A stretch of DNA of 64,000 nt from Fragilaria crotonensis (taxonomy: Eukaryota > Bacillariophyta > Fragilariophyceae > Fragilariales > Fragilariaceae), in assembly GCA_022925895.1 (NCBI GenBank), contig JAKSYS010000237.1, positions 17,200 to 81,199 of the forward strand. Direction: 5' to 3'. Position 1 is the first letter of the stretch; every line of letters begins with the position of its first letter. This document shows, in pieces, positions 919 to 52,500 of this stretch. The translations under genes were made by a program, and so were the position numbers. Under the pieces are notes generated by a model that saw nothing but the letters and a program-made list of their open reading frames with translations, searched no databases and was not told the origin of the DNA.

Positions 919-945
919 CATCAGAAGGCCGCTTTTGTTAACTAT
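919..945 (+). repeat. Left TIR of element A
   Basis: The 27-bp terminal repeat begins CATCAGAAGGCCGC and ends TTGTTAACTAT. It pairs with 26970-26996 with one mismatch. The first ten bases are shared with the left end of element B, and the first eight (CATCAGGG in C) largely with element C. Confidence 0.85.
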
Positions 946-1421: not shown

Positions 1422-2378
1422 ATGTCGACATCACTTTCTGAGGATTGTGCTGTTTGTGGGAAAAGTTTCAAGAGGTTTGTGCGCACCTTGTGCGTAGTTT
1501 GGCATGTGGTTCTTATTACATGCCACGCCGCGCTGACACAGATGAGTGTCGTGAAAGTGAAGGCGCTGATCATGGCACCCGTCCGAATTTGAGATCCTCT
1601 TCGTATAGCACTCTCTTCGTGCACAACGTGCAACTGTAAGAGGAGAGGCGGATGACGAGCCGCCAATCATCAATGTGAATGGAGTTGACGACGAAGACTT
1701 TTGTGATGGATGACGATGATGGTTTTCCGAATGACAATGTTGATGAGGAGGATGTCCCCAGTGATGCAAGTGAAGGCGAGGAAGGTCCGGATGCCGTGTT
1801 TTGGACTTGTATCTGAAACTTTTTCCAGCTGCGAGATAACCCGCTAGGTCTTGCGCGTTTTTCTCGGAAGAGGAGGTCTTAATTGAGTTATTGCAGCTCC
1901 TAAAGGAGCTCCATTGTCCACTCAAAGCGTTTGAGATCATACTCAAGTGGGCTGCAAAATCAAATGGTAGTGGTCATACTTTCCGCGAGGGTTGTCAACC
2001 CAGTCGCAGCAAGGTAATCGCTAACTTGTACGAAAGGTACAACATGAACGGATTGATCCCGGCGAGAAGAAATTGTACCTGCCTTACACCCAGAGAACAG
2101 TGTCCATGATTTACTTTGATGCCCGCGAAGTGTTTGCGTCACTTCTCTCATGTCCCACACTTAATCAAGACGAAAATTATTTTTTTGACGACGCAAAGGA
2201 TCCATTCATCGCACCACAAGCATCGTCTGATGTTGGCGACATCCACACTGGTCGTTGCTACAGAAAGACATACGAGGCTCTAATAAAGAAGTTTGGCGTT
2301 GATATGCTGTTACCTTGCGTCATAGCAATGGATAAGACACATATCGATATGGCAGGACGGCTCCAAATGGAGCCCATA
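1422..2378 (+). pseudogene. Transposase of element A, 5' part (Plavaka/CMC-like)
   Basis: The ATG at 1422 opens a cysteine-rich start (C-x2-C-G-K-S-F, then H-L and C after a frame change) comparable to the N-terminal zinc finger of the element C transposase. About 1880-2000 encodes a Leu-rich stretch with the C-P-x...E-W motif region of element C (here L-K-E-L-H-C-P, I-L-K-W-A). The frame from about 2108 reaches the motif L-P-C-V-I-A-M-D-K-T-H, equivalent to the first catalytic aspartate block (Y-L-D-G-T in C). The LINE enters right after it, at 2379. Several frameshifts and a stop are present between 1500 and 1880. Function: cut-and-paste transposition of element A; now disrupted. Confidence 0.75.
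2362..2378 (+). repeat. Target-site duplication of LINE-1, left copy
   Basis: The 17-base sequence TCCAAATGGAGCCCATA occurs here and again at 11323-11339 on the other side of the LINE. A long, exact duplication of this kind is the product of target-primed reverse transcription. Confidence 0.9.
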
Positions 2379-2514
2379 TATGTAACCTAATTATAAGGTT
2401 GTCACCGTGTACTGGCCGGTAGGCCAGTACCGTGTACCCACACCCGGCGGCGAACCGCGGGATGATTTAACTAAACTATGAACTGTACATAAACCTCATA
2501 CAATCATGCGTCAA
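2379..2514 (-). other. LINE-1 3' UTR with two hairpins
   Basis: Two stems are visible. GTACTGGCC (2409-2417) pairs perfectly with GGCCAGTAC (2422-2430) across the loop GGTA. CCCGGCGG (2443-2450) pairs with CCGCGGG (2455-2461) across CGAA, with one bulge. The second stem is kept in LINE-2 (near 58360) with a different loop, suggesting a structural signal for the reverse transcriptase. The stop of the RNase H frame is at 2515. Confidence 0.55.
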
Positions 2515-11339: not shown

Positions 11340-13674
11340 ACAATCTCACACGGTCTATTGAATCACACTATGCGCCGCCTCCCAAGTGCCATGCGCATCC
11401 TTGGATACATCAATCACAGCACCCCCCCGCACCTCCCAACTAGCGCAGATGTTGATTCCGATTTCAATTCTCCAGAAGATCTGGCGGATGATGTTGTGCG
11501 AATCAAGAACCCAATTCATCCGCCCGCCAACGGTGATCTTAGTTGGGCAACGTTACTCCTCAATGAAACACACATGCAGATTCAGTTTATACTGAAGAGT
11601 CTGGATTTTTGATTCTACAGAACAGTGGCTTCAAATGGAATTTGCATTACAACAACACCATTCACAAAGTGGTGTTCCACCCTATGTACCTTTCATCGTC
11701 GGCGATACAGAGGGTCACGACCGTCTCTGTGGTCATTACACAGCAAGATTCATGGAGGTCAAACAGCTTTGCCGAATCTGTGAATGCCCCAGTTACTTGA
11801 CGGGGTATTCGAAGTCAAAGTTCCCACCGTCTCCCAAAAAGTTGATTCCTTAGTGCAGAGGGGCTTGACTGCTGAGCTCCAATCAATGTCTCAGAACTAT
11901 CTCAAGAACGGGTTTGAAGGCGTCCGACGGCATGCACAATAAGCGCGGAATTTTGGTGCGTGCCCAGGCGAAATGCTGCACTTGATCTCGCTTGGTTGGT
12001 TTAAGTACTGCCTCAGGCTTTCGGCTCAGGCCGGTCCCAAGTCCCAGGCATTGAAGGATTACGATGCACTGTGCGCCAAGTTGGGCTGCACCCTATCAAG
12101 GCAGAGTGACCGTGATGTTCCACGAACAAATTTCTCTCGAGGTTTTTCCTCTGGCCCAATCTCATGGGACACGAGATGGCGGGATGCCTTTGGTGAAACT
12201 ATTCGCATTGCACTCGACGTGTTTCCGCTCCATCTTCAATGTTGGCAAGAAGGTCACCCCAAAGAAGGGGTCAACGATCAAAGGTTATGTTACAGCAATC
12301 ACATCGAAGATTGATAGTTGTCGTATCCTCCTCCTGGTCTGGCACCAATGGATGAAGCAGCCAACAATCCCGAAAAAATGGTGAGGCGCTCCCATGTTGC
12401 TGTGCAGTGGTTGATGCGGTTTGTCGCTGAAGTAGCACCTCGTCCTTCAGGCATGGGAAATAACACCATCAAAACGCACTTGGTCCTGCATCTGTGCGAG
12501 GACATTCTGGACCATGGGGTTCCAGAGAACGTGAACAGTTCGTACGCTGAATCAGCCCACATTCCCTTGCGAAGATAACAACAAGAAACTCGCAGAAACG
12601 AGCTGTTTCTTTCACAAAACAAGCAGCCCATCGGTACGTTGAGAATCTCGCTGTATCACTTGCTTGGGCAGATGTTGAGAGCGACAAAGGCAGTGCCATA
12701 CCAACATCAGGGAAGAAGAACCAGAGAGAGGAACCAGCAACCATCAATTCGACCCTGGACGTGAATTCCACCTTGTGTGGAAAACTGGTGATGAATTTCG
12801 TGTCGTTGGACACATGTGCGTAGCGGTCAGAACGCAGAGCCAGTCGTGAAACTTCCACCTTTGGTGTCAAAGTTTCTTGAAACTTCTGCCTGCCCCAAAT
12901 GCCACAACAGTCTCTTCGGTGCTTTACCTCGCACACAGATGAAAGGGTAACATGTACCGAGCACATCCATGTTATGACGGTAAACCTTGGAATGATTGCG
13001 CAATGATCGACTGGAAAGGGAGAAGCATGACCTTCCAGCATTCATCCATACATTCGTTGATCTGCGCCAGCTTCCGAGCTCAATCAGAAGAATTGAAGTG
13101 AATGGGCAGACAAGTGTGCAACCTGGATTGTACGCCGTTGCCCACACCTTTGACCCAGTTAACCCCACTGACTTCAACACGCCCAATGTCCTCATAGGGC
13201 GTTACAAACCCATTTTTATTCTCCGACCACAGACAACCAACATTGTTCCTGTGGATGTCAAGGCGATATCCTCGCCGCTACTTGGCAGAAGACATCCCAC
13301 CATTTGGAGAAAAGAAAGCGTCAAGGTGGGATCGGCATTACCTTTCCTCATCAGAAGGAAAGTGGAATGGTCCCTTGCATGGGACGCAATAATTGAGCGG
13401 GAGCATAGTGATCTGGAAAACAATGTTGAAGATGACACCTGGTTCAAGAGGATTACGAGACAAAGATGTTGACCACCATGTCTTGCCCGGTAGAGTCGTC
13501 TTCGGCGTGAAGACACCCGAAGACAACGCCAAGGAGGTGGCAGCAAAGAAAGCAGAAAAGCTTGCCACCAAAAAGAAGAAGGAAGACGGCAGCGGCCAAG
13601 AAACGCAAACGAGCTGCGGAAGGAGAACGTTCGCAAGTAGTAGACTTATTTTTCACGTTCTTCGTTTTCAATAG
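11340..13674 (+). pseudogene. Transposase of element A, 3' part
   Basis: The frame broken at 2378 continues across the LINE (I-T-I-S-H-G-L-L-N...M-R-I-L-G-Y-I), matching the element C stretch after its catalytic Asp (...F-T-T-S-L-F...L-M-G-Y-V). Further on come P-F-I-V-G-D-T-E-G-H-D-R-L-C-G (11680-11780; second acidic block with Cys), P-G-E-M-L-H-L-I-S-L-G (about 11962-12000; third acidic block, D/E-x-M-H-x4-G), P-R-T-N-F-S-R-G (12120) and a C-terminal part related to 36529-37368 of element B. At least five frame changes. The 3' end is Lys-rich and overlaps the convergent gene ending at 13646. Confidence 0.75.
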
Positions 13675-20853: not shown

Positions 20854-21322
20854 TGTTACTGCATGTTTGTCACGACTTACAATATGTCCATGGTACGTGT
20901 ATAGCACCGTGCTGTTTGGTACCGTATTCACAATACGGTACTGCCCGGTGCGTATGCACTCCGACATACCTGTTACTAAGTCAGGTATGTAGATAGTCTA
21001 ATTAGTGGAGTACCTCTCATGTACTCCACTCACAACTTCTACTTTAATCCTTTTTATTACTTCAATTGCACTCTTGCCGGTCATCGATCGTAAGGGTATA
21101 GAGGTACAAGGTTTATCGTTACACAAGCACCTCCACGACATTGTCCATCTCACACATCGAACTACACGCCGCATACTACAAACGCCGAACCGCCATTGCC
21201 AAGAGGATTGCTTACCGTTCTCCGGTACTCGTGTGTGTGCTTCTGTGTGGACGATCGTGGACCCTCCATTCTCCTTTCTACACCCCCGAGCGTGAGCGCT
21301 CGATACTTGGAAGGAGATCACA
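20854..21322 (+). repeat. Copia-1 3' LTR
   Basis: 469 bp, identical to 13974-14442, followed by CACTG at 21323-21327. Confidence 0.95.
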
Positions 21323-23436
21323 CACTGATGGGCTCGACAGCAGCTGCTTCAAGGGTGGCTGCCGTTGCGATCACCTCGTCTTCAATTGGGTTTTGGGCAA
21401 CCGTCAATTCATCCCGGTGTTTCCGGCGGCGCCAACGTTTTCGGTTCAAGCGCTTCTTACTGGGCACCCTTTCCCTCCAAGGATCGGGTCGGAGAACAGG
21501 CCGATAATTCGCAGCACACCCAGCACGTCCAGCCTGAACGATCTTTTCCTTGGCGCAGGTGAACACCCCGTAGAGGGTGTTCACGAAGGATGTAGAATCC
21601 TTTGCAACACCAACGTAACCGCTGTCCAAGCCATCAGGACATGAAACAGACGTGCAGTGCCTTACAATCCTGCCATCCCAGCTGATCGCGATTCCGTGGC
21701 CAAGTTTTATGGCCAAACCAGTGAACTTGGTTCCATTCGGTCGCTTGCCTTCAACATTGGGCATGATGAAGTACCAGTTCTCCCCCCAGCCAAGCATCTC
21801 CTCTGTCCAACAACTGTACCCCTGCGAGGCATCGTTAACGTCAAAGTGAGACGAGTTACCCAGGTTATAACTCAGGTCGATAGTGTACGCAACCCGTCGC
21901 CGACGCTCCAACACCGCAAGCAGCCCCCTGATTTTCCTGCTTAGGAAATCCAGGCGGCGGGCGTTGGCGGTATTGGCCTGCGTCTTCTTGGCCTGGGCAT
22001 CGGCCAACAAACGAGCAGTGATGAAGAGATCATCATCAACAACGCCACAGTTGTAGTTGCCGCCGTCATCCCCATCATCGTCATCGTCATCGTCGTCGTC
22101 GTCGTCGTCATCGCTGTCGGAGTCGTCCCAACCAAAGGCAACGCCATCCATTGGTGCCACCGGGCTCAAGCCAGAATTCACCTCCGTGTCTCTTATCACA
22201 GAGTACACCTGGGGGAAGCAACAGCTCCCGACATCCGCCAAGTCCACCACAAGCCCGCGGACGACATCCTCCCCAACAATCGAGTTTGCAGCGTACGGAA
22301 CCTTGTCGTGGACAGCGGGACAATCGACAGAATCGCCCTTCTTCACAGTGATCCTGGTCCCAATTGCAATCATCCCCCCAACATCAGAAGACTTCGCCCT
22401 CGCAGTGCCCTTCCCACCGGCAAGTTTAATTGCACTGCACCTCTCCGTAAGCTCATCCAATAACTGCTGTCGATCATCACGGGGGTCCATTTTCCCAACG
22501 TTCCTCACCATGACAACCGACACCCGATCCGGGATCTCGTCGATGGCGATGTGCACGTCAACGAAATGATGCACGTTGGGGTCAATAATCCAGCAAGACT
22601 CCGGAAGGTCAGTGTGACGGGCCCCGTCCACGTAGTGCCGACAACCCTCCCTTGCACTGGAGGAAGCCTTCAGCCGGTCAAGGTATTCGTGGGCGCGGTA
22701 GTCGGAAGGAACATCCCGATAGTCCATGCCGCCGATGAAGTCTGGGGGCAGGGCAACTCTCCATCCCCTCCTGGCTTGCCCGGTATACCAACCGTACCTG
22801 CTGACCTGGGAGCACTCGCCCAGTCGAGAGCCTCCACGCTGACACTTGACGGGTACCACAAGGCAATGTGGTATCAGAATAAAACCGCTGCACATAGCTG
22901 TCATCACCAAAGGTGTACGATGGCAAACAGTGCTCCGATTCAGTCCTGACCAAGCGAAGCCAGCTCATGTCGTAAGCCCTCAATGTGCCCTGCAGTCCAG
23001 CATCACCAGCGTGGCGATCACGACTGCAGTAGAAGACCCCACACTGGGGTAGGAAGAGGATCACCGCCCTGAACTGGTAATCCCCATCCGGTGCCCCATC
23101 GTCAGGGATGTACGACTGGGCGTGACAAACCGCATGGCCGCCGCCCGATGCAGCAGTCAAAGGAGCCGACCGGCGGTTCACGATAACGTCCATAACGTAG
23201 AATTCGTTCAAAAAATTGGACTGCATCCCCGATTCGGGGAACATGTCCGCAATTGAACGCAGTCGGAACGGCTCCCACCCAAATGCAGTTGCAACCACAC
23301 GGATCGGCGTCCGACCACCCAAGAACCCACCGACCAGCCCGCACTCCCCCGGCGCACTCGCCTTCTTCGCACGTCGGAACCGTCGCCGGAACGCACGCCT
23401 TTCTTCCGGTACGACAGCCATGGACAACAGCGACAT
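21323..23436 (-). pseudogene. Accessory oxygenase-like gene of A, main part
   Basis: Two overlapping minus frames (23436-22678 and 22910-21323) form one gene with a frameshift near 22770. The start at 23436 is tentative. The N-terminal half has W-L-R-L-V-R and G-D-D-S-Y-V-Q-R-F, matching element C (W-L-R-L-R-R; G-N-G-S-Y-V-S-R-L). An Asp-only tract lies at about 22065-22120. Near the C-terminus: G-N-S-S-H-F-D-V-N-D-A-S-Q-G (His 21848, Asp 21842), W-Y-F-I-M-P-N, I-S-W-D-G-R-I-V-R-H-C-T-S (His 21659). H-x-D followed about 60 residues later by H fits 2OG/Fe(II) oxygenases; I infer such a fold, with the co-substrate Arg not assigned. It is cut by Copia-1 and continues at 13973-13646. Confidence 0.65.
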
Positions 23437-24961
23437 AACCGACGAGGGAGTCGGAAGACTCTCTCTTGTCCCACGCCTGGAGGAGGCGATTCCGCCCCGT
23501 CCACGATTGCCTGCGACCCCAAAACACGGGGCGACTGCCCTAGATTCCGAACGGACATCGCAGTCGGCATCGTCCGGTTCCCCGCGGCACCCTTCTCTTC
23601 GACAACGTCGAATCTACCCTTCCGCGACCGCCAACCCCGTCGACTGGATGACATTGTTCGGCCTTCTCCTGCTGCCTGGCAGGTAAGGTCCGCGCGACGC
23701 CACTTCGTTCGACAAGAATGGGATGGTGATCACGCACCACGACGAGGAGACAACCCAACACCAGACCAATGGCAACAGTCGCGAGCGCGTCCTCCTCCCG
23801 TACTCTTCGTCCACAAAAACGACAATCAACCCGCTGCCTGGCGAGGACTGTGCAGTTGTTGCAGAAGAAACGCACGCGGCAAGAAAGGATCGACAACAAC
23901 GCAAGACCACTGACAACAATTGCGAGCGCGTCCTCCTCCCGTACTCTTCGTCCACAAAAACGACAATCAACCCGCTGCCTGGCGAGGACTGTGCAGTTGT
24001 TGCAGAAGAAACGCACGCAGCAAGAAAGGATCAACAACAACGCAATGATCGGGCGAGAGGCTTCATTGAATGTTCTGATTCAATGGAGGTAATGGTGCAA
24101 TTCTGGTGTCAGAAATTGCATACCAGGCGCATACGACATGGTACACACAACTCTAAGGGACTCCACACCTGGGACTTTATTGCAAGCCCTCTAAATAAAT
24201 TCGATTTTTATCTAACAAATAGACGCTATATTTATTTATGATACGATATGTGGATTCGATATTAAGTCAATAGTACTTCAATGCAAATACACCAAAACCA
24301 TTGAACAACACAGAACACCAATATTTCAATAAGTGCGTTGACTTTATTATGCATGTATAATATATTACTTTCCCAGGACCGTAGTATGCACTGTAACAGC
24401 GCTACAATACTACACTGTACATTGTGTAAAATTGCACATTTAGGAATCTTGTATCCAAAGTCATCATGTCATGTATCATGCTGCCCTAAGTACAACAAGT
24501 CACATGTATAGAATTTTTTGGCTATGTATAGCATTTATAAAAAGTATATGAATGGAATGTATTTTTAGTCGCCAATAACAAGATTTATTGACGTGATTGA
24601 AACGCAGGACACTGCAACTTATACCATTACGTGTACAACGATGTACACAGTACCTAGTATGATGCATGACACCGAGCGAGTACAGTCCATGTGTACCATA
24701 TATGTATTTGAAAAGCAATACATATCCATATAAGATCATAGAGTAAAAAACGGTGGATTATGTATTAAATGTGTATGTACATTCAAACAAAATAAAAGCA
24801 TACAGTGTTGTAGTAAATTGACATGTTTGGAATAAAAAAGATACGATATAGTCGTGTAAAGTGAACTTCAAGCAAACATAATATTGCAATAATTGATCCA
24901 TCTCTCATTTTCAATTGATGCGATCTAAAATACAACTTGTTGCTTTCGCTAACACTTCGTC
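23437..24961. promoter_or_regulatory. Region between the accessory gene and third gene of A
   Basis: Upstream of both divergently read genes. Basic ORFs at 23202-23654 (-) may contain an extended start of the accessory gene, since the frame M-S-S-S-R-R-G-W starts at 23654, but this is not supported by element C. 24200-24960 is AT-rich with no gene and should hold the promoter of the gene starting at 24992. Confidence 0.4.
23781..24043. repeat. Tandem direct repeat, 141-bp period
   Basis: GCGAGCGCGTCCTCCTCC starts at 23781 and at 23922. The second copy is near-identical for about 122 bp (two visible G/A differences). Both strands are open through the repeat because 141 is a multiple of three. 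It occupies the same place, 5' of the accessory gene, as the 175-bp repeats of C and the 92-100-bp repeats of B. Confidence 0.8.
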
Positions 24962-24991: not shown

Positions 24992-26651
24992 ATGTCAAAT
25001 CCACAGAATCCTGCTCTAGCATCGCCATCTCAGAACCTTCGGAGTTCTTCGCGACGCATTCGCGAACCACCAGCTGACCAAACACCCGTTCGCGAAACAC
25101 CGTTGGAGCGTGCCGCAAGGAGAGAGGCAGAGACGAAGAAGGCTGAAAGACGTGCAGCTAAAGCAGCTAAGGCAGCTAAGGCAGCTAAGGCAGCTGAGGC
25201 TGCTGAGGCAGCTAAGGCAGCTAAAGCAGCGGAAGCTGCTGCAGCAGCAGAGGCAGCGGAAGCTGCTGCAGCAGCGTCGCAACGGAAACGAGTTGTTGGC
25301 GCGGGAACAAGAGGAAATATAGACAGAAAAAACAAAGGAGTCCAAAAAAACGAAAACAACAAAAGTGCATAACACCTCGTCAGATTCTGGCGACATTGAG
25401 TCGGCGGATGATGATTCTTGTTTTGAACCCACCGATGGCGCTGAAGACGAGGCTGATGATGACGACGACGACGACCAGGCTGATGACGACGACAATAATG
25501 ATGACGGGGCAGAAATTGATTCTTACGTTTCAGCAAACTCATACCTTGACGACGACCCATTGGCATCGCCGGAGGAAGGTAGGCGCGGTGCCCGCGAAGC
25601 TACTGAAGAGTCGAGACGCAGTGCCCAGGCAGGCGCAGTGAATCCTCTGAGGACAAGCAACAGCGAGGAACACGGTACGCCACCTCCACCACCGGCGAGA
25701 GCTGATTCCAGGAAATTGTTAGCAGGATGCCGTTGGAAGCTCCAACAGCACAGAAGAATGTTGTACGGAGGATTGTTTTGTTTGTTAAAACACACTCTTC
25801 CGTCAGATCAAATTCGTTACCAGTACCAAGTCATTTAACGAAGCTTTTCAAAAGGTGCTGGCGGAGGAAAGGCCACGGAATCCATACATATTTCAGTTGA
25901 CGTACCAGAATTCGTTCAAGACGGCCTTGAATCAGAAGCGAAGTACGTGTGAGTTGTCTGGCAAAAGATTGTGGTCAAAGCTATCAATACAGTGTTCAAG
26001 AATCGTGAAGAGGAATTCTTCACTTTTGATGAATTCTGCAAGCTAAGACGAGCGACTACCGAAAGAGAGAGGAAAGCGTTTCTCTGGTTCTTCGACAGTT
26101 TTTGGAGTGTGTTTGCGGGGCTACCGCATGGAATAATGCGAAAACAAAGCAGCTCGTTTCGGAGGCGAGACCCCAGTGGATCAAAAATTGTCAGTGTGAG
26201 TGATGAAGCATTTGCGTTGTTGTTAATTGACAATTACTTGGAAAAGTGGAAAACCAGGGCTGGTGAAGAAGTCGCAGCCCGCATCGACTCGGTAGCAGGT
26301 GGCGCAGCTGCAATTGCGACTGAAGGTGAGGAGATCACGAGAAGGAAACAAACAAAGACAGCCGGTAAATACACTGGAAAAGCTCAAGGACAGTGTAAGT
26401 GGGGTGGCTGGAGTCCCGAAGGCATCAAACAGTTCAATTTTCTTCGCAAGTTAGTGAAAGCAGACAGGGAGGCTGACAAGAATTGTGACGACGAGCCGAA
26501 ACGGATGGAAAAGTTGCTGATGGATTTCTGCCGGACAAAGGCCGGAATAAAGGACCCACAGGATAACGCAAACCTAGACGGTGCTCACAACAATGCAGCG
26601 GCACGGGCAATGGAGAATGTTGAGGCAGAATGGGACTCTGATGACGACTAG
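24992..26651 (+). CDS. Third gene of element A (DEAF/WT-motif family), frameshifted
   Basis: ATG 24992 (M-S-N-P-Q-N-P). Segments: an Ala-Lys-Glu-rich helix (25130-25280), then after a frame change in an A6 run near 25325 an acidic region (25380-25560), a conserved block around 25790-25990 ending V-V-K-A-I-N-T-V-F, and the frame 25971-26651 with V-S-D-E-A-F-A-L-L-L-I-D-N-Y-L-E-K-W (26199), G-G-W-S-P-E-G (near 26400) and a terminal A-E-W-D-S-D. Homologues occur in B (28291-28760 and 39830-41146) and C (42708-44228). Function unknown; helix-rich with a W-S/T-x-E-G box, perhaps a DNA-binding cofactor of the transposase. Confidence 0.65.
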
Positions 26652-26969
26652 GAGTTTGTTTTACTGCCATCCACTTTAAAATGCAATAGAATGACTTTCG
26701 TATGAACAATATCTGTTGTATTAAGATGAATAACCTAATCAATTAATCAACATAAAATGTAACTTTGACTTAACATGAATTGCATAATTACAATATATAT
26801 CGTTGACTTGAGTAAAAATAAATGGTAACTAAAGCGTGCTTTATTTTGAGATAAATTATCCAAACTTACAATATATAATAGAAGTAGTATTTTATTGTTC
26901 AAGTTACCATTTCTGTTAATAAGTAAAATCTAACTGATAAAAAAATGGTAACACTTAACACCAAAGAAA
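26652..26969. other. AT-rich right subterminal region of A
   Basis: No gene. It includes several copies of ATGGTAAC/ACAATATAT-like words, which also occur near the left end (AATGGTTAC at about 953), so transposase-binding repeats are possible. The 3' end of the third gene would be processed here. Confidence 0.4.
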
Positions 26970-26996
26970 ATAGTTAACAAAAACGGCCTTCTGATG
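26970..26996 (-). repeat. Right TIR of element A
   Basis: Reverse complement of 919-945 with one mismatch, ending CGGCCTTCTGATG. Followed by AT (26997-26998), the target duplication. Confidence 0.85.
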
Positions 26997-41450: not shown

Positions 41451-42394
41451 ATTGCTTGTCTTTAACCCGAGAAAGCAAGCGATTTGGTCCATTTGAAGGC
41501 CTCAAGTGGATTTGGTTGAGTTTGTCAAAACGTCGTTCGTCGAATCGACGTGTTAAAGTGCTAAGTAGCACCTGCCGTCCCTGTCGTATTGCGAAGGTTC
41601 GAGGCATTCGTGTGATCTGCATTGAGGCAGATCAGTGTCACCGTCATTGAGACGAATATCGACGGTTTTGTTTAGCAGAAAAGGGACCATTGTCGCTGGC
41701 CCTTCATCGAACGAGTTCGGAAAGCCAGTTGAAACGGGGTTGTTCTGAATCCAACAGGTACTGACGTTCCTGTGTTCTGACGTACGAATCGTATACTTCC
41801 TAAGTAACGAGGAAGATTTGGTCCGAAGTTCCGAAGATTCGGGAAGAAGATTCTTCGGAGATTCGCAATTCGTCACGATTCCCTAAGTAATTTGGACGAG
41901 ATTTGGTCAAAGGTCCGAAGATTCGAGATTCAGATTCGTTGAAGATTCTGAGAGTCACCGAGATCCGAGAGAGAACAAGAATCTTCTGCAACTTCAAGGT
42001 CTGTCGGTCAGCCGGTTTTCCAGATCGAATCTAAGGTCTGTCCTGTGTCCAAAGTTTTTCGACGTCTGTCTGTCCAACGTCATTTGAGTCGAGTCGGATC
42101 GGAAGTCAACGTCCGTCCGTCATCCCATTTTGAGTCGAGTCGGATCGGAAGTCAACGTCCGTCCGTCATCCCATTTTGAGTCGAGTCGGATTGGAACACT
42201 AACCGCCCGTCTGTCATCCGTTTTTTTGGTTACTGAACTTGTTAGTTTTGTGAGTTCGCAATCCGGTGTATTCCGTGGCATTGAGACGCCAAGCTCCTTT
42301 CCTTCAGAAACTTATCACAGTCACCTGCGAGAGGTTCTCAACACAGTTGAGTGAATCGAACCACGTGTCTAACTGTGTAGGTCCTGCTCGATTG
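41451..42394 (+). other. Copia-2 leader, left part, with 46-bp tandem repeats
   Basis: Non-coding leader, continued at 52425-52500. TGAGTCGAGTCGGAT starts at 42085, 42131 and 42177, a 46-bp repeat ending with GTCCGTCATCCCATTT. Degenerate AGATTC repeats lie at 41815-41960. The word CGTCTGTCATCCGTTTTTT occurs at the right end of the left part (about 42208) and again at 52441. No gene is supported. Confidence 0.6.
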
Positions 42395-42429
42395 CATCAG
42401 GGACTCCTGATCTGTAGTATATAAATAAT
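42395..42429 (+). repeat. Left TIR of element C
   Basis: Starts CATCAGGGACTCC and includes ATCTGTAGTATATA. Pairs with 52388-52422 at 31 of 35 positions. Confidence 0.85.
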
Positions 42430-42707
42430 GATTTATAATAATTTATAAAGTTTTCGCTGGCTTTTTTTCAAATAATCTGCGATTCTTACCTATAAATTTC
42501 TGCAGACGGAATTACAAAAATTAACTTTTTTATATAGAACTGTTGTGGATTATTATGTACAACATATTTGGACATATTGGTTATGGCTAATATTTTCAAT
42601 TTATTCCGCGGGTTTCAGGGGGGGGAGGGGGTTCGACGTGTATACTGTATTGCTTTACTGTAAATTTTACACACTGCTGTTTATTGTACACCATCACTTC
42701 TACCATA
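42430..42707. other. Left subterminal region of C
   Basis: AT-rich, no gene, with a G-run (about 42618-42630). It covers the 3' flank of the third gene. Confidence 0.4.
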
Positions 42708-44228
42708 CTACAATGCAACAGCACCAGGCAATTCGTCCCCGGCGGTGCCCACGGCAGCATGTGCCAATAACTGTGCAATGTTGAAATCATTGTACACAAG
42801 TACAACTCGATTCTCAGGTGCAAGTTCCTCATCATTTCCTCCCGGATTCCTTGTGTCTTCCTTGGTGTACTTTCTGATCATTTCATCTTTGAACATGATG
42901 TCAAAATTTTCACCATTTGCTTGTCGGTCCCGTGCCACATCAACCAGAAGAGCATTCATTCGCTCTTTTCCTTCATCTGTCCATCCACGCTTGAGTCCTT
43001 TTGCCTTTCCAGTATACCTTGCATCCTCTTCATCGGCAGCTGTCATATCTTCCTGGCCTTCTTGTTGTTGCCGAACCCATGCCCGGTTCCACTTTGGCAC
43101 ATACGACTCGAGACATAACAAAAGAAATGCCTCATCCGTATACGTAAACCATTCTGACAATGGTTTCGTCATTCGGTTCTCCACATACCTCTTGCGCCCA
43201 ACCACTGCCCTTACAAGGCAGTCTAACAACTCAATATATGCAGCCCTCGAAGCGCTTCTCCTCATCCCCTTGATGCTGTCCAATCTAAATTCCCGGTTTG
43301 TGACTTCTAGTATGTTATCTGTTGTAAAAGTGTGTTAGAAAAATGCAGTGATCACAAGAAGATCCAATCAGCTTCGACTTACCATGAAATCTAGTTTTGA
43401 TTGCCTTGATGACATTGTTTCGATTTGTTTTGAGTTTAGTATGGACTGCCTTCTTTGCGCCCATCCACCAACGTTCAACATTCTCGTCCTGCACCTTCAT
43501 TTTCTCTGCCATGAACCTGCAGATGGATTCCGGATCGTTGCTGAAAGCAAGTTCATGATCAACATTTGCAAACTTAATTTTAGGAAAGACATTCTCCTTC
43601 ACACACTTTTCGAGCAACCAATCCCTTCCCACAGCTGTCAGTCTGTTTGTGCCATACTGCACTGGCTCTTGAACTTGGCCAGCAGCTGCCGCCACCGGAA
43701 CATTCGCAACAGCACCGGGTTCTTCCTCCTCCTCGTGGGTTCTTCATCATCATCGTCGTCGTCACCGCCATCGTCGTTGCCAATTGGATCATCTGTGCCA
43801 GTGTCAGCAGGGTTAGAAAAGAGCCTTCGCATCAGACGAGCAGCATTAGCACCAGAATCACCCGCATGAGAAACACGTGTAGCACCCGCAAGTCGTTGAC
43901 GAGTCCTTGTGGATGGTGAATCATTGTCACCCTCACGTCGACGACGACGACCACTACCACTACCATGATCACGGTTGGAACCCAATTGCATTGCAAGCTG
44001 AATTTGTCGTCGTGTTCTTGTTGCTGGAGAATCGATGAGTCCTGCGGCCACATCATCTGCTGCCGCAGCAGCAGGCGGAGGAGGCGGAGGAGGCGGAGGT
44101 GGAGGTGGAGGTGGAGGAGGAGGAGGAGGAGGAGGAGGAGGACCAACTCTCCCTCCTTGACTGCCTCTGCCCCTCCCTCGGCTACCAGTGCGACCTCGTC
44201 CTCGACCACCTCTCGCTCTGCCGGCCAT
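42708..44228 (-). CDS. Third gene of element C
   Basis: ATG 44228; RGG/RG-rich start (G-R-G-R-G-R-T-G-S), a run of about 23 Pro (44085-44155), basic and acidic stretches, then after a one-base frame change (near 43730) the conserved half: C-V-K-E-N-V-F-P-K-I-K-F, R-W-W-M-G-A-K-K (near 43470), N-N-V-I-K-A-I-K-T-R-F. A 64-bp GT-AG intron (43319-43382) follows, then Y-T-D-E-A-F-L-L-L-C-L-E-S-Y (near 43136), R-G-W-T-D-E-G (near 42990) and TAG at 42710. The RGG box suggests nucleic-acid binding. Homologous to the third genes of A and B. Confidence 0.72.
43319..43382 (-). other. 64-bp intron in the third gene of C
   Basis: On the minus strand it begins GTAAGTCG and ends TTTTACAACAG. Splicing joins ...A-R-F-H and N-I-L-E-V-T-N through a phase-1 codon and keeps the frame; the same position is used in gene B2 (40377). 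Confidence 0.75.
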
Positions 44229-45500
44229 GATCAAGAAGCACCTGTGGTTATGTTTGTGTTGTGCAATTCTCAGCAACTTGTACAATATTCTTGATCGTGA
44301 GTCTTGACGAAGCAAGACATGAAAAATTAAGCACATGCTTTTCAAAAATCTGTATATTACGTAGGGAAAGATGCAGTATACTGAATAGTGAACAGAAAGA
44401 TGCATATCGTGTGTACACGAGCGATGAAGGTGGTCAAATATGTATGACTTCTGGAGTACTTTAACTTGCATGTTATACATTTACGCTATAAAGAATGGAA
44501 TTCATTTACCGAATGATGCTATTTAGAGATATATATGTACATTTTTCAAACATAATATGTGTTTGCATATGATTATTTATGTTCATTATACATTGTATAC
44601 TATGTATGATTTGTGACATGCAAGGCAGTGTATATATGTATGTATACTAGTATACAAGGAGCAGTCATCAACGAAGTGTTGGGGTACTTAGGTGAACTAC
44701 CGGTAGAGCGATCGTTGTAGCCTGTGTGTATCCTGCATGACATTTGGGAGGACTATAAGACATCGTAATTCCAGTGTGTATCCTAGTAGTAGGGTGGATA
44801 AATTGTGTTGATGTGACAAAAAATCAACGCTCATAGTAGTGTCATAGTATTGTTTATGTTCAGTATACGTTTCTATTGTATAGTAAACTTCTCACAGCAT
44901 ACTTAGGCAAAGTAGCCGTTTCACTATGCTTATTCTGTATAACATCATATATTTGCAACAGCATACTAGCTAAGTCCAAGTAGCCGTTTGATCATTCAAT
45001 GTTGAATAAAATAGCTATATATATTCGCAACACTGGTGTACCGACTTAGGCCAAATATGCGTTGGACCAAAGAGCGAGTCATCAAGCACTAGAAACAGTC
45101 GTTCATTGGACAAATGTCTAAATGATAAACAAGACAAAATTGGTCTCCCATTCCACATGTATATCCATGAGCTATATATATCTATTTATGGATATATTGC
45201 ATAGACGATTGTGCTTCGTGATTATGTTCATTGATGTATAAATTCTTGTAATGATTGCGCTTCACAAGCATAGTGGTTGAGTCTCCCCATTGCTGCTTGT
45301 GACATACGTGAGTACGTAGTATGTATTCTACTAGAGTATGGTTTGGGCGATCCTGAAAACTCGTTTTAGTCTATTTTCGCAACAACTGAAACACATTCGC
45401 TCCTCAGTGCGAAAGACATCTCATGTCATCATTCATTGCCTTTCGCAAACCCTCTCTGCCCTTGAGCCCGAGCAACTTTGACAACACCTTGCAGCTGATC
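44229..45500. promoter_or_regulatory. Spacer between the third and accessory genes of C
   Basis: No gene. AT-rich with many ATATAT words between 44500 and 45250. It should contain the promoter of the minus-strand gene starting at 44228; the tandem repeats with TATA boxes follow on its right. Confidence 0.4.
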
Positions 45501-45507
45501 TCGCGAC

Positions 45508-46265
45508 GCTGGAATCTTTTGTGTCGACCCACGTTCGCTGGCCTCCAATCTCCTTCTGGCTTTGTGTTTTACACATATAAAGCTCAGCCGAAGAAGATTT
45601 TGTTGTCGGCGTGTGGTTGGAACAAGACAACCCGGGTTGTGGATTTCTCGTCCGCCGCTGGTTTCTCGACAAGTTTCGCGACGCTGGAATCTTTTGTGTC
45701 GACCCACGTTCGCTGGCCTCCAATCTCCTTCTGGCTTTGTGTTTTACACATATAAAGCTCAGCCGAAGAAGATTTTGTTGTCGGCGTGTGGTTGGAACAA
45801 GACGACCAGGGTTGTGGATTTCTCGTCCGTCGCTGGTTTCTCGACAAGTTTCGCGACGCTGGAAGCTTTTTGTGTCGACCGACATTCGCTGGCCTCTAAT
45901 CTCCTTCTGGCTTTGTGTTTTACACATATAAAGCTCAGCCAAAGAAGACATTGTTGTCGGCGTGTGGTTAGAACAAGACGACCAGGGTTGTGGATTGCTC
46001 GTCAGTCGCTGGTTTCTCGACAAGTTTCGCAACGCTGGGAGCTTTTGTGTCAACCCACATTTGCTGGCCTCCAATCTCCTTCTGGCTTTGTGTTTTACAT
46101 ATATAAAGCTCAGCCAAAGAAGATTTGGTTGTCGGCGTGTGGCTAGAACAAGACGACCCAGGTTGTGAATTTCTTGTCAGTCGCTGGTTTCTTGACAAGT
46201 TTCGCGACGCTGGAAGCTTTTTGTGTCGACCCACGTTTGTTGGCTTGTGGTTAGAACAACATCCA
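45508..46265 (+). promoter_or_regulatory. 175-bp tandem repeats, each with a TATA-like box
   Basis: Four and a half units with period 175-176; the CGCTGGAA/GCTTTT word begins at about 45507, 45682, 45857, 46033 and 46208. Each full unit contains CACATATAAAGCTCAGCC, with TATAAAG at 45576, 45751, 45927 and 46102. The array ends about 40 bp before the accessory gene ATG (46302). It resembles a multiplied core promoter. ORFs through it are open on both strands because the unit lacks stops and is not a multiple of three. Confidence 0.75.
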
Positions 46266-46301
46266 GGTTTTGGATTTCATTCTTACTTGCTGCTGGTGTC
46301 A

Positions 46302-48835
46302 TGACGGAGACTGCAGGTTCAACTGCTTCCTGTTCATCAATGACAATGAGGGAATGGTTTGAGGATTCATCTTCGGAGGGCGAGGCACCAATTCGAGTCA
46401 GGCTAATGAAGAATGGGGGGAAGAAGAAATCAACATCAAGTATGTCGTTGAAGAAGGAGCGGAAGAGGAAGGTTGAGCTGGACAAGGAGAAGAAGATTGA
46501 GCAAATGCGTGAGATTCGGGTTGTTGTGAAGTTAGAATTGAAGAACTTTACGTCATCGAAGGGTACCTTGACGGCTCATGTTGCCTGTGGGTTTAGTAAG
46601 AGCGATGGATTAAGTGCTAGTAGGCGATGCAATAAGAAAGGGAAGCAAAAGGTCAACAATTGGCGTCAACGTCCGGTTCGTTCTGGTGTATTTCAACGGA
46701 CGCTGCCTGGTGAGCTCTCCCGGGTCATCATTGTTGCCACGAAAGTTCGATCTGTGCCTACGGGTGATGCCAAAGTGAAGAAGACAAGAACATTAAAGGC
46801 AGTGAAGGCGACGAAGCAGATCATCAGGGAAACGGAAGGTTTGGATGTTGATTTGCTTCGCGCTGGAAGAAGATCATGGAAGACGGTGAAGGCTGCAAGG
46901 AAAACCTCAAGGAATCGGGAGCTTTGTCAGGTCCTTTACTTCGGCAGCACCCATCGCTTGCTTTGGCAAGCCACAATCAAGTTGCCAATGTGATAGCAAA
47001 ATGTTTGCCTTTGCAGTCCGTGGAAGCTTTTCTTTTGAAGTTCAACTCTTTTCGACCACCTCCTCTCCAAAGCAAAGGAAGCCAAGGAGACGAAAGAAGA
47101 ACAGGACGGCATCTGTTCCAGTGGACCCAATGGCATCTGTGCCAGTACCCTACCGGCACCGGCATCATTGCCGTTTTGCGATGAAACTATTGGCAAGACT
47201 CCTGTTCAATGGGTTGACTCAGGCCTCAAACATGCTTTTGGTGATGACCACGTCATGCTCAAACGTTGCCAACATCCCGATGAAATGTACAGTCTTGAGA
47301 AAGTCATTCTGATCTGGATGTTGTTGTTATGGATTGCATTCTCTCGAGAGGTCGTCCTGTTATTGAGATGTACAACAAGAAGAAAGGCAAAGATGCAACC
47401 AGGGATGCTCCTGTTGCTCCTGTGCAAGCATGTCTGCTCGATGATGTGGATGCCGTGAACTTAGCAATTGCTGTCCGAGATGGAAATGCTTTTAATTATT
47501 GTCCTTCTGCAAACAACAACAGCGACGAGTTCTACCGTGCCTGCATTGTCATCCTTCCCAAGCTGGGGTATTCTATTGTCACAGGGCGCCGCTCTCTATT
47601 GACGGGGCTACTGAATTCACATGTGCCAATGGATATAAACTGGTTGCGACTTCGGCGTGACTCCCCCAACAACTGCTTTGGAAATGGGTCTTATGTTTCA
47701 CGACTTGTAAATGCGAAGAAGTGCTCCATTTGGAAATGGAGTATTCGCCGTTCAGCCACAAATTTGCTGCCATTCCCTCATGCAATCCCGGGGCTGAGAC
47801 CCAGATCACTTGTGAGAGTGGTTCACCGCACAAGGCAACTGGCGGACGAGGAAGGACCTGGACTCCCACCTGACTACATTGTGGGCGAGGGGGACAACTT
47901 GTCAAATGCCGATGAAAAGTCCGGGGCCAAATTATTCCAAGAAGCCTTCTCGCGTTCGATGTCAGCCAGACTGGGAGGTCGCCACTATGCGCCGGGATTT
48001 CTACACATGGGACAGAAAATTGACCCGTCGACAACGTGGGTCATTGATCCGAAAGAATTCAGTGAGCTTGACTTGGAGTGTCATGTGACAATACCGCCCT
48101 CGACCGATGGTCAACTCCCTTTCGAGCGCCTTTCGGTTGTGCAGATTCGCTACCTCCCGCACATTGTTGGATCGGGTTGCGAGGAACTTCTGACCGACAT
48201 CAATAAGCATTGTCGCATGGTGTCACGTGAAGGGGCAGTTCTGGTGCTCGTGCTGGCAATGGTGACTTTGGAGGATGCATCCAATTGGGAGACGCATTGA
48301 CAAGTCTTGGAATAGTGTGCAGTACGTAACATCTTCAAGTGAGGAAGCAATCCCGGTGCTCTCGAAAGCCGTGGACGCCGCGTCTATACTTGCATCTGTT
48401 GCCATCCCGGCGGCCCTCAGGGTGATGCAGGACTTCGAAAATGATTCTGGGATGCAGCACGCTCGGGGTATGGAGGGGGGCCGATGCCGTGTTACCCTGA
48501 GCATGGACTTGTCGATCAATTTGGCAAATTCGTCTCATTTTGACGTAAATGATGCAAGTCAGGGGTTCACCATCTGGACCGAAGACTATCCCGGCAGCAC
48601 CGAAGATTGGTACTTTGTTCTTCCGAACATGAAAGGCAAATTTCCTGGAACGGATCGCGAATACGCCGGAATTGCAATCAAATTGTCTGATGGTGTCCTT
48701 ATTGGATGGGATGGCCGCTTGATCCGACATGGAACATCCATGGTGGGTGAACGTGTCGGAAATATCTATGGTAATTTCTTCGCGGCCAAAACACGGATCA
48801 TCCAGTATGGGATGTCACAGTTACCAAAAGCCTAA
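46302..48835 (+). CDS. Accessory oxygenase-like gene of element C
   Basis: ATG 46302 (M-T-E-T-A-G-S-T). Segments in different frames: 46302-46993 (Lys-rich), about 47000-47460, 47329-48300 and 48275-48835, joined by introns or frameshifts. Shared with A: G-K-T-P...V-M-D-C-I-L-S-R-G-R-P (47180-47360), W-L-R-L-R-R, G-N-G-S-Y-V-S-R-L, L-P-P-D-Y-I. The end has N-S-S-H-F-D-V-N-D-A-S-Q-G (His 48536, Asp 48542), W-Y-F-V-L-P-N and I-G-W-D-G-R-L-I-R-H-G-T-S (His 48728), an H-x-D...H set suggesting a 2OG/Fe(II) oxygenase fold. Possible role: oxidation of nucleic acid bases or proteins; unproven. Stop TAA 48833-48835, 24 bp from the convergent transposase stop. Confidence 0.65.
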
Positions 48836-48858
48836 TGTTATTCCAATTACATTTCTAT

Positions 48859-51835
48859 CTACCAAATTGTCCTTGACACTTGTGCGGTGTAATCAACCTT
48901 CGTCGACTCATAGAACATCGATGGCCACTTGGACTTGTCAGTAACAACGATGACATCAGAGTCCATATCTGGACCTTGAAGAACAAAGCACAAGCCAACA
49001 ACAGATTCAGAAGAAACAACATAAAACTCTTTCTTGAACGTCCACGCTGTGAACAAAAAGGACTTACGCCCCGAAGGTTCACCGCAGCATTGAATAATGA
49101 GGTCAAAGGTGGTGCTCTCAACACCGGCAATGCTGCTGTGGCGTGGTATGCAACTCACAACACGAGATGGGAATTCCGTCTCATTTCCATCATCATCTTC
49201 GTAACGAATGAGAGCCCAATCATACCAGGAATATCCCTTTCCCCGGTAGTTTGGGTGGCAGCGAATGGATACCATCTTCTCGTCCGTTTCATCATTATAC
49301 TTATGATACTCTGTGCAGCACTTGACACTTCCCACTCCGTTGTCATCGAGATCGGAGTCACTGTAAGTCTGCAAGATGAAGAGCTCAAGATTATCTTCCA
49401 GATTGATGGTTCCTTTTGTCTGAGTGTCAAAAACACTGTCTCGGCAGAGTTGATTCTCATGGGAAGGGTCAAGAAATGACCTGACGTAATACGATGTCCC
49501 AGAACCTACTTCCCTTGTCGGAGGATCTGCAGCATCGTCAGCCAAATTGGCAACTCTGCCTTGCGACAATGTATTCAATTGAGGTGTTTTTTCAAACAGA
49601 GAATGCATGGTATCAATCACAAATGCATCTGCAATTCTTCTGCCACACTGCTGGTCTATGGTGTCGACGTTCTTCTGTGCCCGCCGACCAGGACGTTTGG
49701 CATGAGCCTTGTGGTGTTCCTCAGGCCGGGAAGCATTGTAACCTCGCGGTGCACCAAACGTGCAAATAAAACGTACGATGTGCTTGATTTCATGGAATTT
49801 GGACACTTTCCATCCATTGCCTTTTTCTCTTGGAAGATAAGTTGTGATGAGCTTCATCAGAGAACAAATCGCAGCTTCGGCTTCAGTTGCCTCATTGTGT
49901 GGGTCTCCAATCTCCCAAAGGTGTACTGATCCAGCCATGCCTCAAAGCATAAAAGGCTTTCCATCGTCCCCAACACCGCACGCAATTCCAACGCTGGAAA
50001 ATTGTGCTCAAGAAAATCCAAACCTTGCATTCTGATGCGCATAATGAAGGACGAAATGAGGAACAAAGCACCTGACTGCTCTGAACATTCCACCATGGTC
50101 AGGTTTGTTATTCCTCTGGAGAAATCAGTTCTGGGAAACGATGAGCGAATACTCTGACAGCATGTCTTGTCGAATACGTGAGCCATTCTGTCTAGAATTG
50201 CAAGAGACTGTGCATTGAGACCTCTCTTGAAGCAATCGAGAACATACATGATGATGCCATGCTGAACGGTATGCATAACATCAACGACTGCACACATGAA
50301 GATGCCATAGGGATTCTGCCCCATCTGAATGCGGTTGAACGCATTGTCACATTTATAGATTGAAAGCTGACGACGATCCTCTTGTGATCCGAATCGAGAT
50401 ACATGGTTGATTGTATCAGTTGATAAGAATGTGCACAGAACTTCGGGGGAATCAAGATCTTCATACAAACAATCACATGAACGGTGGTGACGCAATGTAC
50501 TGCTGTGATGGCCATTGACTCGGCAACAAAGTTGATCACCTTGCTTGCCATCATTGATGACAAATAAAAGGGGGCACACAACTTCAACAACAAACCACCT
50601 GTCACCAAGTTTCAAAGGTACTCGTTGCAAACGATCATCTAAAGCAGCTTGCCCTTTCACCCAACCTGCCATCATTACATCCATGACCTTATGGAAGTTA
50701 CGCGTTGTACGGCCTTTCTCTTGTGCACTTGCATTTGCGAAACTATTCATTGCTCCGGATCGCCCACGGTTCAGGTCAGGAACATAACCCATCAGACGCC
50801 ATGCCTTGACATCACGACGTGCTTTCTCAGTGAAAAGAGATGTTGTGAACGACACTGGACAAATCTCAATGTGCCCCTTGCTGTCAATGGCAGTGCCATC
50901 AAGATACATTATAATTGGAACAAGAAGCTGATTCTTCCCTTGCGCCAGTTCATTGTATAGCTCTCGGTAACGTGAACCGCTATTTGCCTCTCCAACTTTG
51001 CCATCACTTGGAATGTACATCGACATCGGATAATCCTTGTTGAGGACAAGATTTTCGGTTACCATCAATGACTCATCTTGCAGTAACGACAACAATGCAG
51101 GCACAAAATCAAAACAAATAATATCTTGAGGCTTTTCATGATCTTCCAGATTCACTTGCAATACCTTAGGGAGTCCTTGGTGCGAGTGCTTCAAAGCTTT
51201 GTACATCCATTGGATGTTGGCTTTCCTTGTTGTAGCTCTTGGATTGAAATCAAAGCCTTCTAATTTGGCATTGTACGCCCATTCTAGTACCTTCTGCAAC
51301 ATGTAGTCAGGACATTGTGCATCCTCCAAAAGCTTGAGGAGATTCACAATGTTTCGATGCTCAACATCGTGATGCAAAACCATTATTGCATGGCGCTCCG
51401 TAGCTCCAATGCGTTCCATCATGGCATGAAAAACTGGGCAAGATATCGCCACATCATCTAGCAGTTCCACAGTACAGCTGTTATCATCCCATTCAACCCT
51501 TTCATCGTCCATGAAATCATTGTCAGCGACATCATCAACATTAGCTGAATAGTCAAAACTGCGTACGGTTCGTATGATGGAGGATCTGCACTCATAAAAG
51601 GATTTAAGCGTGACGATTCAACACCATATCCCAGGCGCCGGCACCATGTACTCTCACGAGTTATGTTAACACTATCGGCAACGAGAGGCCTTGGTAACGA
51701 CATGTACTCACGACATGGAGCACTTCGCCATAAATGCTGCCGAAGACCTCGTTCAGTTCTGAATGTTGTATAGCAGTTGATATTGAAGCACACGCAACCA
51801 GCATGGGGAGACGCTGCTTCATTGTTTCCTGACAT
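48859..51835 (-). pseudogene. Transposase of element C (Plavaka/CMC-like)
   Basis: ATG 51835 (M-S-G-N-N-E-A-A-S). Finger C-V-C-F-N-I-N-C...H-L-W-R-S-A-P-C; frame change in a TTTT run near 51560. The main frame 51512-49920 has D-I-I-C-F-D-F-V-P-A-L-L-S-L-L, P-I-I-M-Y-L-D-G-T-A-I-D-S-K-G (first Asp), L-L-F-V-I-N-D-G-K-Q-G-D-Q-L-C-C, A-V-V-D-V-M-H-T-V-Q-H-G (third acid) and P-R-T-D-F-S-R-G-I-T-N-L-T. A second frame change in TTT-GGG near 49918 leads to the C-terminal frame with K-F-H-E-I-K-H-I and R-P-G-R-R-A-Q-K. These blocks resemble fungal Plavaka transposases (D-x-L-H-Q-L-x-K-G). Confidence 0.8.
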
Positions 51836-52387
51836 GATGATCACTAAAGCAGATGGACTGCCACCCTCGTTGTTTTTATCAGTTGACGAAGTGCCGATAC
51901 TATGATGGAAAATATGGCGCGGCAATTGTGACATAGTTGGAGATACGAAGAATGCATGAAATCGATGGAAAATATGGCGCGGCAATTGTGACATAGTTGG
52001 ACATACGAAGAATGCATGAAATCGATGGAAAATATGGCGCGGCAATTGTGACATAGTTGGAGATACGAAGAATGCATGAAATCGACTGAATCTAAGGTCA
52101 AGCATATTTGACAAACGACGCTTTGAGGCAGATGCATATTAGAAAGTCTATACAATATAAAGGAAACGATACAATATCACTAATGAATCCCTCACACTGC
52201 ACTTGCGTTTTGAAATATATCTTTAAAGCACATTCGATGAAGTAGAAAGCAACCTTTGCAAGTAATAGTATGTAAAACATGAAAACACACTGTGAATGGA
52301 CATCAAACACAAAACATTATTTATAAAGTAAATAAAAATGATCAAAACCCTGCAATCAGTAAGGAATACGATAATCATTTCTACGGA
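51836..52387. promoter_or_regulatory. Promoter side and right subterminal region of C
   Basis: Upstream of the transposase start. Contains the 60-bp triple repeat (51904-52085) and AT-rich sequence up to the TIR. Minus-strand ORFs extending the transposase through the repeats (to 52155) are possible but not supported by A or B. Confidence 0.45.
51904..52085. repeat. 60-bp tandem repeat, three copies
   Basis: GATGGAAAATATGGCGCGGC starts at 51904, 51964 and 52024; the copies differ at one base (AGATAC/ACATAC). Because 60 is a multiple of three, a minus frame repeats F-H-A-F-F-V-S-P-T-M-S-Q-L. Its place, near the transposon end and upstream of the transposase, fits a subterminal binding array. 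Confidence 0.85.
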
Positions 52388-52422
52388 ATTGTGTATATAC
52401 TACAGATCTGGGGTCCCTGATG
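52388..52422 (-). repeat. Right TIR of element C
   Basis: Ends GGGGTCCCTGATG; reverse complement of 42395-42429 with four mismatches. Followed by TG. Confidence 0.85.
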
Positions 52423-52500
52423 TGGTGGTTGGTGGTTTGTCCGTCTGTCATCCGTTTTTTGCGAGCTGCATCCCTGACCGGTCTAGCTACCCCTGTTAAG

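Follow-up and report, generated by a model that had tools for sequence, protein, structure and literature searches.

The window analysed here is a 64,000-nucleotide stretch of the genome of the diatom Fragilaria crotonensis (contig C156, positions 17200–81199, in an assembly of 62.1 Mb and 881 contigs). It contains element C, a transposon with CATCAG ends that carries three genes, encoding a Plavaka-type transposase, an oxygenase-like protein and a third conserved protein, together with element A, which bears the same three genes, and a further element B. Their features are compiled in Table 1, with positions counted along the window unless a contig is named.

Architecture of element C and related elements in the window

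Within element C, the oxygenase-like gene and the transposase gene converge, and the third gene lies at the opposite end, divergent from the oxygenase-like gene. The transposase and oxygenase frames of this copy are broken relative to the copies on contigs C518/C30 and C121, with two frame shifts in the transposase relative to C30 and a frame break near 48270 in the oxygenase-like gene; the transposase piece at 51458–52138 holds, by eye, a zinc-finger-like N-terminus. Long transposase frames are found in other copies, reaching 993 amino acids (aa) in C30 and 1093 aa in C518 from stop to stop. The host sequence around element C resembles a Copia retrotransposon by eye, and a 210-nt query combining both flanks with one TG matches four other places end to end at 99–100% identity, representing the empty site.

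Between the third gene and the oxygenase-like gene, positions 45433–46176 form an internally repeated block, the repeats being visible in translations of open reading frames (ORFs). The C121 copy (L002/L011) is 99% identical to element C at the third-gene end and 100% identical in the oxygenase domain; its transposase (L011) is 90% identical and contains stops, no right end was found for it, and the copy is possibly mosaic or decayed.

Elements A and C agree in gene order and direction, in line with the preliminary description of this DNA, which had assigned them the same three genes; the transposase of A survives only as a remnant in two pieces. Element B carries a Plavaka-like transposase and a relative of the third gene that is apparently split by introns or frame shifts, recognised through one 22-aa match (E=8.5e-4) and otherwise by eye; an oxygenase match to accompany them was searched for in the window and none was found. 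Separately, the segment 27861–28784 begins with a CATCAGAAGG end followed by A-type third-gene remnants (28309–28784, minus strand), apparently a truncated relative of element A.

Table 1. Coordinates of the transposon features in the window and of the MULE copy on contig C63
Feature	Position	Strand	Details
Element C	42395-52422		CATCAG ends; TG on both sides
Target-site duplication TG, left copy, element C	42393..42394	.	sequence; empty site with single TG elsewhere
Left terminal inverted repeat of element C, third-gene side	42395..42424	+	27/30 identical to right end
Third gene of element C, whole	42708..44480	-	ORFs, frames, genome table, dN/dS
Third gene of element C, C-terminal part	42708-43334		middle part in another frame
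Third gene of element C, N-terminal part	43638-44480		RG-/Pro-rich
Oxygenase-like gene of element C	47299..48835	+	HxD in SHFDVND, distal H in WDGRLIRHGTS
Plavaka-type transposase of element C	48859..52138	-	pieces 48859-49941, 49857-51617, 51458-52138
Right terminal inverted repeat of element C, transposase side	52393..52422	-	comparison with left end
Target-site duplication TG, right copy, element C	52423..52424	.	sequence; empty site
Element A	919-26996		AT on both sides; ends identical at 27/30 bp
Left terminal inverted repeat of element A, transposase side	919..948	+	flank AT
Transposase remnant of element A, N-terminal half	2070..2387	+	PF18759 Plavaka E=0.0017, below cut-off
Transposase remnant of element A, C-terminal half	11692..13436	+	11952-13436 27.5% identical to L070, E=1e-33
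Oxygenase-like gene of element A, two frames	21318..23613	-	sequence comparison
Third gene of element A	25953..26651	+	29% identical to third gene of C, E=2.6e-7
Right terminal inverted repeat of element A	26967..26996	-	flank AT
Element B	34573-41150
Plavaka-like transposase of element B	36529-39554	-	several frames
397-aa ORF of element B	35339-36532	+	convergent with transposase; no Pfam match
Interrupted third-gene relative of element B	~39.8-41.1 kb	+	head to head with transposase
Complete MULE on contig C63	94248-102275		8,028 bp; inverted ends; 9-bp duplication CCATTTTCG

Ends, mobility and gene neighbourhood across the genome

After merging, the genome searches yield 145 oxygenase-domain loci (from 150 rows), 150 Plavaka-type transposase loci, 27 transposase loci of the Mutator-like (MULE) type and 84 third-gene loci. 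These tables give minimum numbers, as only a fraction of the candidates was scored (150 of 262 for the oxygenase, 75 of 450 for the C transposase, 40 of 560 for further Plavaka-type and 58 of 93 for MULE transposases); every candidate was scored for the third gene and for the Plavaka profile PF18759. For example, the copy on contig C103 has no listed oxygenase, and the 2.4 kb at the expected place contain a frame-shifted oxygenase on the expected strand. In keeping with a diatom host, the silicon transporter family PF03842 is matched in the assembly at 19 places, 18 of them above the cut-off (best E=4e-193), with one of 14 control genomes matched, below the cut-off.

Ends were scanned as sequences starting with CATCAG and differing from the C ends at no more than six of 20 positions. 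Such an end lies 5′ of the transposase in 22 of the 27 transposase loci scanned, being missing in L011, L016, L017, L033 and L036, and it lies at the third-gene side in 14 of 16 loci (six of the eight first scanned, with L003 and L008 missing or altered, and all eight scanned later). Among the 12 copies with both ends available, the flanking dinucleotides are identical in nine, namely elements C and A of the window and the copies on C17, C405, C471, C170, C103, C764 and C594 (binomial p=2.7e-9 at a chance of 1/16 and 4e-4 even at 1/4). The related inverted termini and 2-bp duplications first noted for A (AT) and C (TG) are thereby borne out, through agreement at 27 of 30 bp in each element, the empty site and the nine matching copies. 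The preliminary description had also allowed that the termini might be chance matches, an explanation ruled out by the empty site at four places and the matching flanks in nine of 12 copies.

Compared with the C17 copy, eight of nine loci are 97–99.5% identical over aligned pieces of 1.5–3.9 kb and one is 94% identical, the near-identity of these copies indicating that transposition was recent. A further possibility raised at the outset was that copies with the same ends might lack the second and third genes; among the copies whose ends were scanned, the 6.7-kb, internally deleted copy on C26 keeps its ends and the third gene but has no listed oxygenase.

The copies on C17, C405, C471 and C170 are complete at about 8.84 kb and have matching 2-bp flanks; the transposase-side sequences of the latter three are 97–99% identical to C17. 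An ORF at 3245–3994 of L022, located where the C659 copy ends on the right or just beyond, appears to resemble a piggyBac-type transposase.

A convergent Plavaka-type transposase lies within 6 kb downstream, on the opposite strand, at 68 of the 145 oxygenase loci, against 1.1 expected under uniform placing, with three tandem arrangements and no divergent one; without the A-type transposase places the count is 51 of 145. At 43 of the 145 loci (1.0 expected), the third gene is found up to 10 kb upstream in divergent orientation, with four loci showing other orientations, and a convergent MULE transposase is present at 18 (0.2 expected; none in other orientations). Sorted by neighbour, the 145 loci comprise 30 with Plavaka-type transposase and third gene, 38 with Plavaka-type transposase only, 18 with MULE transposase, 13 with third gene only and 46 with none of these. 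Among listed loci, the third gene accompanies 30 of the 68 Plavaka-linked oxygenases and 0 of the 18 MULE-linked ones (Fisher p=0.0002). Seen from the other side, a convergent listed oxygenase occurs at 68 of the 150 merged Plavaka-type loci.

The transposase and the oxygenase-like protein

The PF18759 profile matches 91 places in the genome, 76 of them above the cut-off (best E=2.6e-14), and none of the 14 control genomes, of which those named are prokaryotes and have little bearing on other eukaryotic transposases. The A-type transposase L071 (contig C829, 1166 aa) matches this profile at E=5.6e-4, below the curated cut-off, and aligns with the C-type transposase over 798 aa, with 24% of residues identical (E=1.6e-38, calculated against a small local database). 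On this sequence evidence, the transposase belongs to the Plavaka lineage, for element C indirectly, via its A-type homology. An alignment of six transposases retains D, D and E-like positions, putatively including the catalytic residues, with one row ending before the E; its [C/H]RxC region reads CRxC in the A-type and HRxC in the C-type proteins.

Plavaka falls into the CMCT clade together with CACTA, Mirage, Chapaev and Transib, for which C(2)C and H(3–4)H motifs are expected between the second D and the last E. In Kojima 2025 (PMC12730594), PlavakaB elements are described with CATCA..TGATG ends and 2–3-bp duplications, and every TET-bearing Plavaka family is PlavakaB (PMC12730594). Elements A and C fit this description in their CATCA..TGATG termini and 2-bp duplications, and by these end features would be PlavakaB candidates. 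The preliminary description had called the transposase comparable to Plavaka in its motifs; the likeness stands but was understated, as PF18759 and the 798-aa homology assign it to the lineage itself, and its ends and duplication size are those reported for fungal PlavakaB. Fungal KDZ (Kyakuja/Dileera/Zisupton) transposons with TET/JBP genes are likewise DNA transposons with dioxygenase cargo (described in PMC12730594), but they form a separate transposase group with 7–8-bp duplications, whereas the diatom elements have 2-bp duplications and relatives that match the Plavaka model. Membership of KDZ is ruled out by duplication size.

The oxygenase-like protein is defined by a domain in which H74, D76, H138 and K158 are invariant in 18 of 18 members, down to 39% identity to the C121 member. 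The only two invariant histidines in this alignment are those of the HxD motif and of the distal RHxTS. HxD and a distal H constitute the iron triad of 2-oxoglutarate (2OG)-Fe(II) dioxygenases, and we take the spacing observed here to fit these enzymes. The second gene therefore reads as a probable 2OG-Fe(II) dioxygenase.

The preliminary description had brought in TET/JBP oxygenases through their association with KDZ elements. The diatom protein shows the HxD...H triad in 18 of 18 members, but TET/JBP identity is not supported, since PF12851 (Tet_JBP) scores nowhere in the genome at E≤1 and in none of the 18 domain members at E≤5. It is nevertheless conceivable, though unlikely, that the second gene is a divergent TET/JBP member, kin to the dioxygenases of fungal PlavakaB and inherited or transferred with the transposon. 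The shared transposon lineage, ends and kind of cargo, as well as the presence of HxD and a distal H, would suit such descent, and fungal PE-type TET/JBP proteins are themselves described as barely detectable by sequence in PMC12730594. Besides the PF12851 result, the HxE reported there for the PE type found in Plavaka, against HxD in the diatom protein, argues in the other direction. For the phage TET/JBP protein Nigel gp2, the PF12851 match has E=4e-6 and stays below the cut-off. An hhalign comparison of the oxygenase-like protein with phage TET/JBP (18 Nigel gp2 relatives) and with 71 PiuC relatives gave no match, and as the positive control, TET against PiuC, also failed, the comparison was powerless and nothing is drawn from it.

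The transposase, oxygenase and third gene each show signs of purifying selection. The ratios of nonsynonymous to synonymous divergence (dN/dS), computed for six of eight pairs because one partner has no open frame with the motif in the cases of L041 and L005, come to 0.18 and 0.09 for the two transposase pairs and to 0.18 for the third gene, compared over 157 codons between C121 and C30. For the oxygenase they are 0.24 in the MULE-linked pair C873/C63, 0.10 in C829/C273 and 0.14 in C466/C285. The parts of the third gene, scanned against Pfam, reach at best N1221 (E=0.045, below the cut-off).

Exchange with MULE elements, possible function and precedents

The complete MULE on contig C63 encodes a transposase of 1114 aa and an oxygenase of 1159 aa (stop to stop), and its inverted ends, examined in this one copy, contain exact blocks of 37 and 18 bp. 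MULE transposons have inverted ends with 8–11-bp duplications. The two best Pfam matches of the C63 transposase are PF10551 (E=0.005) and SWIM PF04434 (E=0.012), both below the cut-off, and together with the 9-bp duplication they support a probable assignment of this transposase type to MULE. The element thus shares a MULE/SWIM-like transposase, inverted ends and duplication with Mutator and differs from it by the convergent oxygenase; we know of no other MULE with such cargo.

For the oxygenase tree, 50 loci were reduced to 42 rows by dropping eight with identical domains, the rows including 14 MULE-linked (of the 18 MULE loci), 15 Plavaka-linked and nine unlabelled ones; labels were taken from the neighbouring transposase and set before the tree, which contains several long branches. 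The MULE label needs five changes on this tree, well-supported branches forcing at least three, and a single MULE clade is rejected (approximately unbiased test, p=3e-105). Because MULE- and Plavaka-linked oxygenases interleave, the cargo has moved between superfamilies: the oxygenase gene has been exchanged between Plavaka and MULE elements. The oxygenase as a fixed part of one system, as first envisaged, does not survive the 18 loci that face a MULE transposase and the repeated switching on the tree. Similarly, the CATCAG-ended three-gene family is real as a repeated family in which all three genes occur, but the set is not fixed, since MULE copies, element B and an oxygenase-free transposase class depart from it; a fixed three-gene system is ruled out on the same grounds. 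We infer that the third gene has accompanied Plavaka elements for longer, as an accessory, and that the oxygenase joined later as exchangeable cargo.

Taken together, elements A and C quite likely represent a large, recently mobile cut-and-paste family of the Plavaka lineage (CMC/CMCT) with exchangeable oxygenase-like cargo. In such a family, the transposase, with its zinc-finger-like N-terminus and DDE-like core, would act on the CATCAG...CTGATG ends, leaving a 2-bp duplication. The second gene would be cargo resembling an Fe(II)/2-oxoglutarate dioxygenase and the third would encode a Plavaka-associated accessory protein, which might, as a guess, assist DNA binding by the transposase.

Several observations weigh against this interpretation. 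The flanks of three of the 12 copies (C526, C26 and C30) do not match. The C-type transposase proteins, when scanned, give no direct match to PF18759; moreover, HxxxH occurs only in them, and they have H in place of the leading C of C(2)C. A search with the C transposase gives 59 merged loci, of which 23 show a listed oxygenase in convergent position and 36 do not; among these 36, one checked locus of 14 (C103) does hold the gene, and the other 22, at 33–37% identity to the C transposase, form a class with no listed oxygenase into which the strongest PF18759 matches fall. Element B belongs to this class by similarity. The class appears to lack the oxygenase, which is therefore not a general feature of the Plavaka lineage here. 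Additionally, synonymous divergence (dS) exceeds 1.3 in four of the six computed pairs, so that the dN/dS ratios are rough, and the oxygenase pairs include no C-type copy.

At 59 of the 145 oxygenase loci there is no recognised transposase nearby, as might be seen if the oxygenase were an ordinary host gene family, repeatedly captured and without a role in transposition; Pack-MULEs, named in PMC12477816, are a known case of MULEs capturing host genes. We regard this as quite improbable, given the convergent position beside a transposase at 86 of 145 loci and the purifying selection suggested by comparisons of transposon copies. The third gene is present at 13 of the 59 loci, some of the 59 may contain divergent transposases that went unrecognised, and the underlying tables give minimum counts.

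A further difficulty is that Pfam, PDB and PHROGs provide no convincing relative of the oxygenase-like protein, so that its chemistry is read at motif level only and the name "oxygenase-like" is retained. The best PDB profile match (E=0.0033), a designed helical pore, aligns with a helix before the motif and is judged spurious, as is PDB 3h9m (E=0.02), which aligns just after the HxD; five PHROGs families, matched with the full-length alignment only (best E=0.037), are judged chance. No relative of the oxygenase domain was found in bacterial and archaeal genomes or, with the domain alignment, in viral contigs, and single third-gene, A-type transposase and oxygenase proteins gave none in viral contigs either, single-protein scans reaching close relatives only. 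This lack of relatives, together with about 400 conserved residues that precede the HxD motif and that an oxygenase does not explain, would be expected of a non-oxygenase accessory, such as a DNA-binding or structural protein, with a coincidental HxD...H. Such a protein seems improbable, because the sole two invariant histidines in the 18 members are exactly those of HxD and RHxTS, at a spacing presumably that of 2OG-Fe(II) enzymes.

If the second protein is a dioxygenase, it may oxidise a mark, such as 5-methylcytosine, through which the DNA or chromatin of the element is silenced, and so help the carrier element to escape silencing. By analogy this is a tentative proposal, to which we give somewhat less than an even chance. 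C5 DNA methyltransferase matches (PF00145) occur at 13 places in the assembly and may include non-host genes; with the recent near-identical copies, they make a counter-silencing role testable in this diatom. For fungal TET/JBP transposons, the corresponding proposal lacks experimental validation according to PMC12730594. More doubtful still, yet conceivable, is that a diatom dioxygenase family unrelated in sequence to TET/JBP constitutes a shared anti-silencing cargo hopping between Plavaka and MULE elements, in parallel to fungi. Were this so, the carriage of mark-oxidising enzymes by transposons would be a strategy that recurs, from two or more enzyme origins, and the diatom enzyme might catalyse novel reactions on DNA or chromatin. 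The repeated crossing between superfamilies itself points to a gene generally useful to transposons.

The closest known system is the fungal TET-bearing PlavakaB (Kojima 2025, PMC12730594), which shares the Plavaka-lineage transposase, the CATCA..TGATG ends with 2–3-bp duplications and an internal dioxygenase gene, and in which one dioxygenase type likewise spans several transposon superfamilies of one genome. Here, the host is a diatom, a third gene is conserved, and the oxygenase is not detectably TET/JBP and has HxD, in contrast to the HxE of the fungal PE type (PMC12730594). The exchange partner is MULE, absent from the fungal TET-bearing lineages listed there. Other epigenetic cargo is documented in two sources: MuDR carries a SET methyltransferase (PMC12730594), and Sola1 of the brown alga Ectocarpus carries a ParB-methyltransferase accessory (PMC12477816), which is a methyltransferase and not an oxygenase, Sola1 not being Plavaka.

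Listings from the open-licence literature, among them two papers that mention Plavaka once each and also contain the word diatom, showed no description of this combination in a diatom or other stramenopile, of a diatom Plavaka, or of a MULE with an oxygenase. The earlier statement that the combination was undescribed holds for diatoms and stramenopiles but not in general, because fungal PlavakaB with a dioxygenase provides a precedent (PMC12730594); likewise, its portrayal as an analogous, independently assembled system may fit the oxygenase but not the transposase, which is of the Plavaka lineage. A transposon with dioxygenase cargo shared among superfamilies is already known. New, as far as the searched literature shows, are the host, the protein family, the MULE partner and the third gene. 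A kind of cargo described in fungi, the dioxygenase-like gene carried by a transposon, is thus also present in a diatom, where it belongs to a protein family unrecognised by the public models searched.

Elsewhere in the window, the ORF at 32480–33154 weakly resembles a GNAT acetyltransferase (PF13508, E=0.011, below the cut-off).

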